Below, one piece after another: positions 3,425-62,763 of a stretch of 64,000 nt of DNA (position 1 is its first letter; each line of letters begins with the position of its first letter). This DNA comes from Actinophytocola algeriensis (lineage in GTDB: Bacteria; Actinomycetota; Actinomycetes; Mycobacteriales; Pseudonocardiaceae). The position numbers and the translations under genes are program-made. The notes beneath the pieces are model-generated. The model was not told where the DNA came from. It made no database searches and saw nothing but the letters and a program-made list of their open reading frames with translations. Where the stretch lies: positions 656,869-720,868 of the forward strand of contig NZ_JACHJQ010000005.1 of assembly GCF_014203735.1 (NCBI RefSeq), in the 5' to 3' direction.

Positions 3425-3511
3425 GGGAGGACGCTAGCGCGCACCACCGACAGTTCCGGGCGCGGCGAGAGTTCGCCTGTCACCGAACGGTTCCGGCGCG
3501 ACACTCGGAGC

Positions 3512-3981
3512 ATGGTCCGCTCGCCGCTACTGGTCGTCATGTGCGCCGGGTACTTCCTGGTCCTGCTCGACGTCACCGTCGTCAACGTGGCGCTCCCGGA
3601 CATCGGCGGCGCGCTCGCGTCCGGTCCGGCCGGCCTCCAGTGGGTGGTCGACGGCTACGCGATCGCCATCGCCGGGTTGCTCCTCGTCGGCGGCACCGTC
3701 GGCGACGTCCACGGCCACCGATGGTCGCCGGTCTCCTCCTCGCGGCCGCCGGGTTCGCGCTGCTGACCGGGCTGCGGGCGGACTCGTCCTACCAGGTGCT
3801 CCTGCCCGCGCTGCTGCTCTGGGGCCTCGGGCTCGCTGCCCTCACCCCGGCGTTCGGAGCGGTCGCGGGCACTGCGTCGAACGCGCGGGCGTTCGTGTCC
3901 GGGCTGCACCTGACCGGCCTCGTCGCAGCCGCGTTGTTCCTGGTAGCGGCGTTGTCCACACTGCTCATGCGTTCGAATTGA
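3512..3981 (+). pseudogene. Decayed MFS (DHA2/EmrB-type) drug exporter
   Basis: From the ATG at 3512 the sequence encodes the first transmembrane helices of a 14-TM major facilitator. It includes LLDVTVVNVALPDI, LQWVVDGYAI and a degenerate motif A (GGTVGDVHGHR). At about 3720 the homology continues only after a frame change (GLLLAAAGFALLTGL onward) and jumps to late helices, ending with a final hydrophobic helix at 3981. Only about 155 residues of an expected 450-500 remain. At least one frameshift and large internal deletions are therefore needed to explain it. It is non-functional as a transporter. Confidence 0.85.
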
Positions 3982-4013
3982 CACGAGTTCGAACGTGTGT
4001 TCGACTATGCCCC
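3978..4013 (+). promoter_or_regulatory. LexA-controlled (SOS) promoter of the radical SAM gene
   Basis: A perfect TTGACA -35 box lies at 3978-3983, and a GACTAT-like -10 lies near 4003-4008. Between and over them sits TCGAACGTGTGTTCGA (3989-4004), which matches the mycobacterial/actinobacterial SOS box TCGAAC-N4-GTTCGA exactly. LexA bound here would block RNA polymerase. The -10 position predicts transcription starting at or next to the GTG at 4014, so the mRNA would be leaderless. Confidence 0.8.
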
Positions 4014-5966
4014 GTGCGATGGGAAAGCCAGCGCGTCGATCATGACGGCAACGACGGCCCCGGTGGCAACGGCGGCCAGCAGACACTGCCCGGTCTCCCC
4101 GGGCTGGTGCGCAGCGTGCGCACCCCGGAGTTCGCGAACGTCGTCTTCCACGAGGTGCGGGCCAAGTCCGTGCTGAACAAGGTGCCCGGCCAGTCGCGGA
4201 TGCCGTTCGGGTGGACGGTCAACCCGTACCGCGGGTGCAGTCATGCCTGCCGGTACTGCCTCGCGGGGGACACCCCGATCCTGATGGCCGACGGCCGCAC
4301 CAGACCGTTGTCCGGGCTGCGCGCGGGCGACCGGATCTACGGCACGGAGCGGGTCGGCAACCGGCGCAGATATGTCGCGACCCAGGTGCTCGCGCACTGG
4401 ACCACGCACAAGCCCGCGTTCCGGGTCACGCTGCGCGACGGCACACAGCTCATCGCCAGCGGCGATCACCGCTTCCTCACCGACCGCGGCTGGCGGCACG
4501 TCGCGGAGGGCGCGTGCGAGGACGAGCGGCGGATCCTCGTGCCGGGCGACCGGCTGGTCGGCACCGGCCACTTCGCGACCCCGCCCAAAGGCGGCGAGGA
4601 CTACCAGTGCGGCTACCTGGCCGGCATCGCGGCGGGGCACGGCGAGCCGGTCGACCCGAGGGTGCTCGAACGGGCCAGGGAGTTCCTGACCGGGGAGGAG
4701 TCGATCAGCCTGCCGATCCAGCGTCCCGATGTGCCGAGCGAGGAGTGGCACAAGGGTTTCCTGGCCGGCGTGTTCGACGTGGACGGGGACTACTCCAGGG
4801 GGCGCCTGCGGGTCGGTCGCACTGGCCGCGCCGTGCTGCCGGAGGTCGTCGCGGCGTTGCGGCGCTTCGACTTCGCCTTCGTCGTGGAGGAGGCGGGGCA
4901 CCGCAGCGGCGTGTGCCGCTTCCGGCTGACCGGCGGGCTGGGGGAGCACCTGCGCTTCCTGCACTCGGTGGACCCCGCGCACACCGGCACCAACGAGCTG
5001 AACGGTGTCGTCCTGCGCTCTGCGGCGCAGCTCGCGGTGGCGACGATCGAGCCACTCGGCCTGGAACTGACGCTGTACGACATCACCACGGGCACCGGCG
5101 ACTTCATCGCCAACGGCGTCGTCAGCCACAACTGCTTCGCCCGCCGCACACACGAGTACCTCGACCTCGACGCCGGCGAGGACTTCGACTCGCAGATCGT
5201 GGTCAAGGTCAACGCACCCGAGGTGCTGGCCACCCAACTGCGCTCGCCGCGCTGGACCCGCGAACCCGTCGCGATGGGCACCAACACCGACCCCTACCAA
5301 CGCGCCGAGGGCCGGTACCAGCTGATGCCGGGGATCATCCGAGCCCTCGCCGGCAGCGGCACCCCGTTCAGCATCCTCACGAAGGGCACGGTCCTGTCCC
5401 GCGACCTGCCACTCCTGTCCGAGGTGAGCAAGGACGTCGAGGTGGGTGTTGGCGTGTCGATCGCCTTGGTGGACCGGGAACTGCAACGCAAGCTGGAACC
5501 GGGCACGGCAAGTCCCCAGGCGAGACTGGAGCTGGTCCGCAAGATCGTGGAGGCCGGCCTGCCCTGCGGTGTGTTCGTGGCCCCGGTGTTACCTGGTCTA
5601 ACCGACTCGGTAGAGCAGTTGGACGCACTGCTGTCGTCGATCGCCGACACCGGGGCGACCGGCGTGACAGTGCTGCCACTCCATTTACGCCCGGGCGCGA
5701 GAGAGTGGTTCGCCGCGTGGCTGGCACGCGAACACCCACGGCTCGTGCCGGAGTACCGCCGCATCTACGCCAAAGGCAGCAACGCGGACGTGCGCTACCG
5801 CCGCTGGCTGGGCACCAGGGTCGGCCCGCTGTTACGCAGGCACGGCCTGGGTCCGAAAGCGACGCGGCCTGTGGACACGGCTGAACCTGGCTGGCCGGAC
5901 GGCAGCCTGACCGACCCGGCGAAGGCCGCGGAACCGGTGCGGCAGGAACAGCTGTCGCTGCTGTGA
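4014..5966 (+). CDS. Intein-containing Rv2578c-family radical SAM protein
   Basis: The 650-residue precursor is a radical SAM protein related to SplB-like DNA repair photolyases, split by a 292-residue intein. Residues 1-81 and 374-650 are the host protein (358 residues after splicing, close to mycobacterial Rv2578c). The Fe-S motif is C75-x3-C79-x2-C. Its third cysteine is supplied by residue 374 after splicing, while in the precursor the intein's own Cys82 occupies that place. I chose GTG 4014 because the N-terminus MRWESQ resembles Rv2578c and because upstream codons lie inside the promoter. LexA control fits a DNA damage role, but the lesion or substrate is unknown. Confidence 0.9.
   Translation: MRWESQRVDHDGNDGPGGNGGQQTLPGLPGLVRSVRTPEFANVVFHEVRAKSVLNKVPGQSRMPFGWTVNPYRGCSHACRYCLAGDTPILMADGRTRPLSGLRAGDRIYGTERVGNRRRYVATQVLAHWTTHKPAFRVTLRDGTQLIASGDHRFLTDRGWRHVAEGACEDERRILVPGDRLVGTGHFATPPKGGEDYQCGYLAGIAAGHGEPVDPRVLERAREFLTGEESISLPIQRPDVPSEEWHKGFLAGVFDVDGDYSRGRLRVGRTGRAVLPEVVAALRRFDFAFVVEEAGHRSGVCRFRLTGGLGEHLRFLHSVDPAHTGTNELNGVVLRSAAQLAVATIEPLGLELTLYDITTGTGDFIANGVVSHNCFARRTHEYLDLDAGEDFDSQIVVKVNAPEVLATQLRSPRWTREPVAMGTNTDPYQRAEGRYQLMPGIIRALAGSGTPFSILTKGTVLSRDLPLLSEVSKDVEVGVGVSIALVDRELQRKLEPGTASPQARLELVRKIVEAGLPCGVFVAPVLPGLTDSVEQLDALLSSIADTGATGVTVLPLHLRPGAREWFAAWLAREHPRLVPEYRRIYAKGSNADVRYRRWLGTRVGPLLRRHGLGPKATRPVDTAEPGWPDGSLTDPAKAAEPVRQEQLSLL
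4257..5132 (+). mobile_element. Intein with degenerate LAGLIDADG homing endonuclease
   Basis: The intein covers residues 82-373. It begins with the nucleophile Cys82 (CLAGDTPILMADG, block A). Block B is SGDH at 149-152, block F is LYDITTGTGDFIANG, and it ends in His372-Asn373 followed by Cys374. All residues needed for protein splicing are present. The endonuclease core keeps the second dodecapeptide LAGVFDVDG (250-258). The first reads LAGIAAGHG (202-210), with His where the metal-binding Asp should be. Homing activity is therefore probably lost while splicing is retained. The insertion lies exactly before the third cluster cysteine. Confidence 0.9.
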
Positions 5967-62070: not shown

Positions 62071-62763
62071 GTGCCACGAACGCCGATGATCGCGCCCAGC
62101 ATCCTGTCCGCCGACTTCGCCCGGCTCGCCGACGCGACCCAGGCCGTGAAGGGTGCGGACTGGCTGCACGTCGACGTCATGGACGGGCACTTCGTGCCGA
62201 ACCTGACCATCGGGCTGCCGGTGGTCAAAGCGGTCCTGGCCAGCACCGACATCCCCGTCGACTGCCACCTCATGATCGACGACCCCGACCGGTGGGCGGT
62301 CGGTTACGCGGAGGCGGGCGCGCACAACGTGACCGTCCACGTCGAGGCGGCGGCCGACCCGGTGAAACTGGCCCACGACATCCGCGCGGCGGGCGCCATG
62401 GCCGGGCTGTCGATCAAGCCCAGGACCCCGTTCGAGCCCTATGTGGAATTGCTGACCCACTACGACACGTTGCTGGTGATGTCCGTCGAACCCGGGTTCG
62501 GCGGGCAGGAGTTCATCGCCGACGTGCTCGACAAGGTCCGCAAGGCCAGAGCCAAGGTCGACGCCGGGGAGCTGCGGGTGCTGGTCGAGATCGACGGCGG
62601 GATCAACGCCGACACGATCGAGCAGGCCGCGGAGGCCGGTGTGGACTGTTTCGTGGCCGGCTCCGCGGTGTACGGCGCGGCCGACCCCGCCAAGGCGGTC
62701 GGCGCGTTGCGGGAACGAGCACGGACGGCGATGCGGCAGGCACGAGAGACAAGGACGATGTAG
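62071..62763 (+). CDS. rpe: Ribulose-phosphate 3-epimerase
   Basis: The 230-residue TIM-barrel epimerase of the pentose phosphate pathway begins [13 protein letters not shown], with metal ligands in [29 protein letters not shown]-like and [10 protein letters not shown] motifs close the barrel. The GTG at 62071 lies 7 bp after a TAGGCT box (62058-62063), pointing to a leaderless start. ATG 62086 in frame is the alternative. Confidence 0.96.

Follow-up and report, generated by a model that had tools for sequence, protein, structure and literature searches.

Does an intein that interrupts the Fe-S motif of a radical SAM enzyme serve its host as a second control switch, acting after the LexA repressor has been lifted, or is it a mobile element that needs no such role? 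This question is raised by a locus in the window (the whole 64-kb stretch of DNA analysed), which belongs to a genome of 9.7 Mb in 23 contigs. We considered the anatomy of the gene, its LexA box, the intein and the relatives of all three in turn.

Organisation of the gene and of its product

The features on which the analysis relies are the following:

3989..4004, + strand: LexA (SOS) box TCGAACGTGTGTTCGA, exact match to TCGAAC-N4-GTTCGA, ending 9 bases before the GTG
4014..5966, + strand: intein-bearing Rv2578c-family radical SAM gene, start GTG, stop TGA, above the cut-offs of NF038136 and NF038135
4014..4256, + strand: N-extein, residues 1-81, ending PYRGC75SHAC79RY81 (translation and alignment)
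4236-4238 (C75) and 4248-4250 (C79), + strand: first two cluster cysteines (translation and alignment)
4257..5132, + strand: predicted class 1 intein of 292 residues, C82 to N373 (C82...VVSHN373), from the invariant splicing residues and TIGR01445
4611..4643, + strand: first LAGLIDADG motif, GYLAGIAAGHG, in which the aspartate of the GDG of longer relatives is replaced
4755..4787, + strand: second LAGLIDADG motif, GFLAGVFDVDG, with its aspartates retained
5133..5963, + strand: C-extein, beginning C374FARRTHEYL (C374 = 5133-5135), from the translation and the +1 Cys of relatives

The translation of 4014-5966 has 650 residues, and the GTG at 4014 aligns with the M/V-R-W start of relatives. The product is a member of the Rv2578c family, as it exceeds both curated NCBIfam cut-offs: it scores 853.8 bits with NF038136 (intein-containing Rv2578c family radical SAM; cut-off 700, profile positions 1-573 of 574) and 516 bits with NF038135 (cut-off 430). 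Its best named matches come from Actinokineospora, Prauserella, Amycolatopsis and Lentzea, which leads us to place the host in the Pseudonocardiaceae.

A preliminary description of this DNA placed the intein between C79-R-Y and the last of the three cluster cysteines. The translation agrees, with C75-S-H-A preceding C79 and with C374 as the third cysteine. Intein-free relatives have the cluster motif CxxxCxYCFAR or CxxxCxYCYAR, and in the predicted spliced product the CX3CX2C motif is formed by C75, C79 and C374 across the predicted splice junction. C374 would serve twice, as the +1 splicing nucleophile and, in the spliced enzyme, as third ligand of the cluster. Before splicing, it is C82, residue 1 of the intein, that fills the last position of the motif, and the true third ligand lies 292 residues off; the mimicry of the third cysteine by the first Cys of the intein, pointed out in the same description, is literally there as C75-x3-C79-x2-C82. 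It had also stated correctly that intein-bearing proteins of this family are known, since NCBIfam NF038136 names such members. As this model already covers them, the host family and the intein arrangement are already catalogued and the window protein is a further example, in which we saw no defining difference and which has a decayed endonuclease motif. Among the titles and abstract openings of open-licence papers, we found no report on this intein.

The host enzyme

The window protein scores 16.0 bits with the Pfam spore photoproduct lyase model SPL (PF20903), below the cut-off of 27, and is therefore not assigned to that family. The model of an intein-free relative (L229) has a spore photoproduct lyase-like fold: its six best PDB matches are all spore photoproduct lyases (best E-value 9.6e-8, TM-score by query length 0.51-0.54). 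With the model of the precursor, intein and homing-endonuclease structures match first and spore photoproduct lyase appears lower down. On these models, the host is probably a nucleic-acid enzyme with a fold akin to that of spore photoproduct lyase, a likeness of fold and not an identity of function. A second gene copy, without an intein, for a related enzyme is found in one congener (L265, G115:C15:17356-18300); at 405.5 bits it stays below the family cut-off of 430. A search of a phage collection with L229 returned 8 of 50,697 records, with a best identity of 32.8%.

In several species, SOS regulation of SplB-like radical SAM genes has been described. A similar case is vnz_31145 of Streptomyces venezuelae, a radical SAM gene of the LexA regulon for which LexA binding and induction by mitomycin C are reported and whose product is likened to repair enzymes for UV-induced thymine cross-links; the available portion of that account mentions no intein. 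According to a 2026 paper, loss of an Rv2578c-family gene in a Streptomyces seems neutral and the link to repair is called speculative, which places the host's need for the protein in doubt.

The LexA box belongs to the host gene

The pattern TCGAAC-N4-GTTCGA, the consensus of the actinobacterial LexA box, occurs with at most one mismatch at two sites in the 64-kb window (3989-4004 and 62486-62501), against 0.16 expected in shuffled sequences. The 9.7-Mb genome contains eight perfect sites, against one for the reversed pattern. Besides the site at the radical SAM gene, there is one each before lexA, before an imuA' gene, at the start of an ImuB-like frame and before dnaB among the other seven; the name ImuB-like is our own reading, the best NCBIfam matches of this frame (DNA polymerase IV models) being below their cut-offs.

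We collected a family sample of 111 alleles from the window's bacterial family (the window and 110 fetched ones), 72 with the intein and 39 empty. As 80 of the 110 were hand-picked among the matches listed to cover a range of genera and sizes, the proportions in this sample are no estimate of frequency. A LexA box with at most one mismatch is found at all 72 intein alleles and at 37 of the 39 empty ones (109/111 overall), against 0/111 in a control scan of an in-gene stretch of the same alleles. The box is adjacent to the start and conserved in relatives, as in members of a LexA regulon, and the SOS control that had been proposed for this gene is supported in the form of the perfect box at 3989-4004. 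Because the box of the family sample is equally common with and without the intein, LexA control, as predicted from the box, is a property of the host gene; for the same reason, we rejected the idea that the box arrived with the intein.

Two other sets were scanned. In a class-wide set the box is weaker overall than in the family sample: with at most one mismatch it is present at 11/17 alleles that have the intein and at 6/29 that lack it, under uneven sampling of genera, and the GAAC-N4-GTTC core is found at the best site in 12/17 and 19/29, respectively. Four of the 50 loci of this set fell outside the search motif and were viewed separately, two having the core box and two none. In a named set, the box accompanies 64 of 74 intein alleles and all five empty alleles; another box-bearing locus is cut off by the end of its contig and was left unclassed.

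The dnaB gene of the window genome (G000:C3:400640, L252) also contains an intein, and a perfect LexA box immediately precedes its start. We considered whether LexA-box genes attract inteins through SOS, but relatives matched as uninterrupted dnaB also carry the box: across L252 and L274-L298, a box with at most one mismatch occurs in 12 of 25 scored loci, including the window genome's own (27 loci were given to the script and 2 were dropped as not fitting the motif). Judging from these boxes, the replicative helicase may often be under LexA control in this group. A third intein of the same genome (L257, G000:C6:718278) seems to lie within gyrB, a host that we named by eye.

Splicing residues and decay of the endonuclease

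In the alignment of the 72 family inteins, C1, H71, D275, H291 and N292 are each present in 72/72; according to our own block assignments these are Cys1, the block B His, the block F Asp, the penultimate His and the terminal Asn. The window intein has the residues of a class 1 intein, with Ser in the place of the usual block B Thr (ASGDHR), and reaches 27.2 bits with TIGR01445 against a cut-off of 24.5, so that it is predicted to splice by the class 1 route. The wider set comprises 218 distinct alleles, 148 with the intein and 70 empty. All 148 inteins have Cys1, end in His-Asn and are followed by Cys+1. As the search patterns permitted other residues at position 1 and Ser/Thr at +1, the constancy of these two is a result; that of the terminal Asn and of cluster cysteines one and two is not, since the patterns fixed these residues. 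The family alignment contains no further conserved intein cysteine, the best other column having Cys in 26/72, and extra conserved cysteines as the mark of a redox sensor were accordingly rejected. The nearest solved splicing domains are those of DnaB inteins when a single sequence is used and, with a profile, that of the gp41-1 intein just ahead of DnaB; I-DmoI is a weak match to the endonuclease part.

An active LAGLIDADG homing intein has an acidic residue in both motifs, and the window intein lacks it in the first. Many relatives of 340-350 residues have GYLxGMIRGDG and GFLxGxFDAEG, and the aspartate of motif 1 is also lost in the four congeners printed beside the window intein. Across the 148 distinct alleles, intein lengths range from 143 to 382 residues and form a ladder: those of about 340-350 residues mostly have both LAGLIDADG motifs, shorter ones have decayed motifs and mini-inteins have 143-168 residues. 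A decayed endonuclease motif is common across the set.

Distribution and inheritance of the intein

The insertion site is identical, to the codon, in all resolved intein alleles, and empty alleles occur alongside in the same genera. On a quick extein tree of the 111 family alleles, at least 19 gains or losses are needed, 8 of them forced by well-supported branches, and none of 500 shuffles gave a number as low as 19. Intein and empty alleles of one genus can be closely related, with extein identities of 91.1% (L012/L009) and 88.0% (L023/L035). The two intein alleles of these pairs, L012 and L023, are 62.3% alike in the intein and 54.3% in the extein, from which a horizontal move of the intein is likely. 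Among inteins longer than 320 residues, the intein is more alike than the extein in 87 of 703 pairs, so that most pairs lack this direction. The nearest relative of an intein is within the same genus in 69 of 72 cases and intein and extein distances are correlated (Spearman 0.40; 0/200 shuffles as high), which suggests that inheritance within genera is mostly vertical; a long retention of the intein for some use may therefore have occurred.

With empty alleles in the same genera, the box in both kinds of allele and LAGLIDADG decayed in the window, the intein looks like an optional mobile element in a host gene that bears a LexA box. The picture that these comparisons suggest is one of invasion, decay and mostly vertical inheritance, followed by loss or fresh gain.

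Other mobile elements and neighbouring frames

In another genome of the window's genus (G132; L266, L264, L267 and L268), the gene is split over two contigs exactly at the intein/C-extein junction and both broken ends carry ACAACTGTT. Serine recombinase frames lie just past the left junction (one of the two matches Pfam Recombinase and zinc ribbon) and the frames on the outer side resemble, by eye, the neighbours of the window gene. If the split is no assembly artefact, it looks like the work of an integrative element that has the intein/C-extein junction as its attachment site. We also considered the attachment site of phage Samy as the intein site and rejected it: in 10/10 loci viewed of a group that we take to be Streptomyces (f21/g71, among L120-L144), the attachment core is found with 1-2 mismatches at a different place, 118 bases before the first cysteine codon. 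As the Samy core differs from the intein site, mobile elements appear to target more than one site in the gene.

Two overlapping frames immediately before the LexA box (window 3496-3980) read to us like fragments of an MFS transporter and possibly represent a decayed gene; they have no Pfam match. About 2 kb upstream of the window (L003, G000:C5), pqqE- and pqqB-like frames, named by eye, suggest a PQQ cluster just outside it.

Is the intein a second switch?

The preliminary description had gone further and proposed that an Fe-S cluster is held by C75, C79 and Cys82 in the precursor, that cluster loading and splicing compete, and that iron or oxidation gates the enzyme once LexA has been lifted, in a two-step switch. 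Cys82 does keep the CX3CX2C spacing in the precursor. The two ends of a folded class 1 intein are close together, so that the four thiols C75, C79, C82 and C374 could be neighbours. However, Cys1 and Cys+1 are required by class 1 splicing anyway and we saw no sign in the sequence beyond these needs, no other intein cysteine being conserved; Cys82 must occupy the active site of the intein for splicing; in the family sample, empty alleles have the LexA box just as often; and such alleles, found in the same genera, are common in the sample (70/218). AlphaFold models of the precursor and of the intein-free protein have parts of the cysteine loops at pLDDT below 50, and because of this low confidence they cannot judge cluster geometry. 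The literature searched offered no precedent for cluster binding through Cys1 of an intein. These claims found no positive support, and we consider the competition between cluster and splicing highly improbable.

A redox version can dispense with the cluster: in oxidised cells, a disulfide between C79 (-3) and C82 (Cys1) would block the first step of splicing and active enzyme would appear only once reducing conditions return, LexA setting the amount and the disulfide the timing. A parallel is the MoaA intein of Pyrococcus abyssi; MoaA is a radical SAM protein like the window host, and P. abyssi is an anaerobic hyperthermophile, which counts against reading its intein as a model for such a trap. 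Like the window intein, the MoaA intein has a Cys at -3 and Cys1, and a disulfide between the two is reported to have been demonstrated there and to block splicing (Callahan 2011, via two reviews). The MoaA spacing would fit an insertion before the third cluster cysteine, while the host family is another one, the host is archaeal and SOS control does not feature in the accounts given by these reviews. Oxidant-sensitive splicing is further reported for a mycobacterial DnaB intein and, in the title of a paper, for the SufB intein of M. tuberculosis. The DnaB inteins of mycobacteria have a related splicing domain, and in DnaBi1 a P-loop serine is, as described, both a functional host residue and a splicing residue, akin to the dual role predicted for C374; but DnaBi1 is a class 3 intein with a disulfide between two intein cysteines, whereas the window intein is of class 1 and has no further conserved cysteines. 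In chemical terms, a C79-C82 disulfide is plausible. All 148 distinct intein alleles have the -3 Cys/Cys1 pair, of which the search pattern demanded the -3 Cys and not Cys1. Yet the host motif and class 1 chemistry together make this pair inevitable, and its conservation therefore does not point to selection; empty alleles of the same gene in the same genera manage without it. We regard a redox trap of this kind as unlikely.

The junction thiols might also bind zinc or another soft metal, which would pause splicing with no Fe-S cluster involved. The splicing domain of the window intein is related to those of DnaB inteins, and the DnaB intein of M. smegmatis is reported to be reversibly inhibited by micromolar zinc on a catalytic cysteine; the published accounts describe inhibition of several inteins by zinc and other metals, so the effect would not be special to this site, and a metal brake here has very little probability. 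A broader form, in which SOS-made precursor is a reservoir and C75, C79, C82 and C374 as a transient metal or Fe-S site (or a C79-C82 disulfide) halt splicing for as long as iron, sulfide or reducing power is lacking, seems to us quite improbable. If it were true, an oxygen-sensitive repair enzyme would be freed only when it can be loaded.

Proposed course of events and significance

We found nothing in support of the intein as a second control switch, and the whole is probably best read as a LexA-box radical SAM enzyme colonised by a mobile class 1 intein, with no second switch needed. An intein whose splicing domain is of the DnaB/gp41-1 type would have colonised the DNA that encodes the CX3CX2C motif, LAGLIDADG homing being the presumed route of entry, and the endonuclease would later have decayed, as in the window. 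Splicing would be retained after this decay because the host protein would otherwise be broken. After damage, the lifting of LexA predicted from the box would lead to production of the precursor, in which the intein would fold and splice unaided: by class 1 chemistry, Cys82 would form the thioester, Cys374 would take over the N-extein and Asn373 would cyclise. The spliced protein would carry C75, C79 and C374 and could accept a [4Fe-4S] cluster, the true third ligand being in place only then. Cys1 stands in the place of the third ligand because any class 1 intein with Cys as its first residue, once inserted directly ahead of a cysteine, must put a Cys there. Sensitivity to redox state or metals, if any, would be a side effect of the junction thiols. 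The greater frequency of the box in intein than in empty alleles of the class-wide set (11/17 against 6/29) speaks against this reading, though genera were unevenly sampled there.

In related species, and sometimes in one genus, this LexA-box-bearing enzyme occurs in three forms: uninterrupted, interrupted by a mini-intein, or interrupted by a full homing intein. With these three states, control that depends on the intein is separable from control by LexA, and the family offers a clean test case for the disputed notion of inteins as environmental sensors, in which the present comparison leans towards the mobile-element view.
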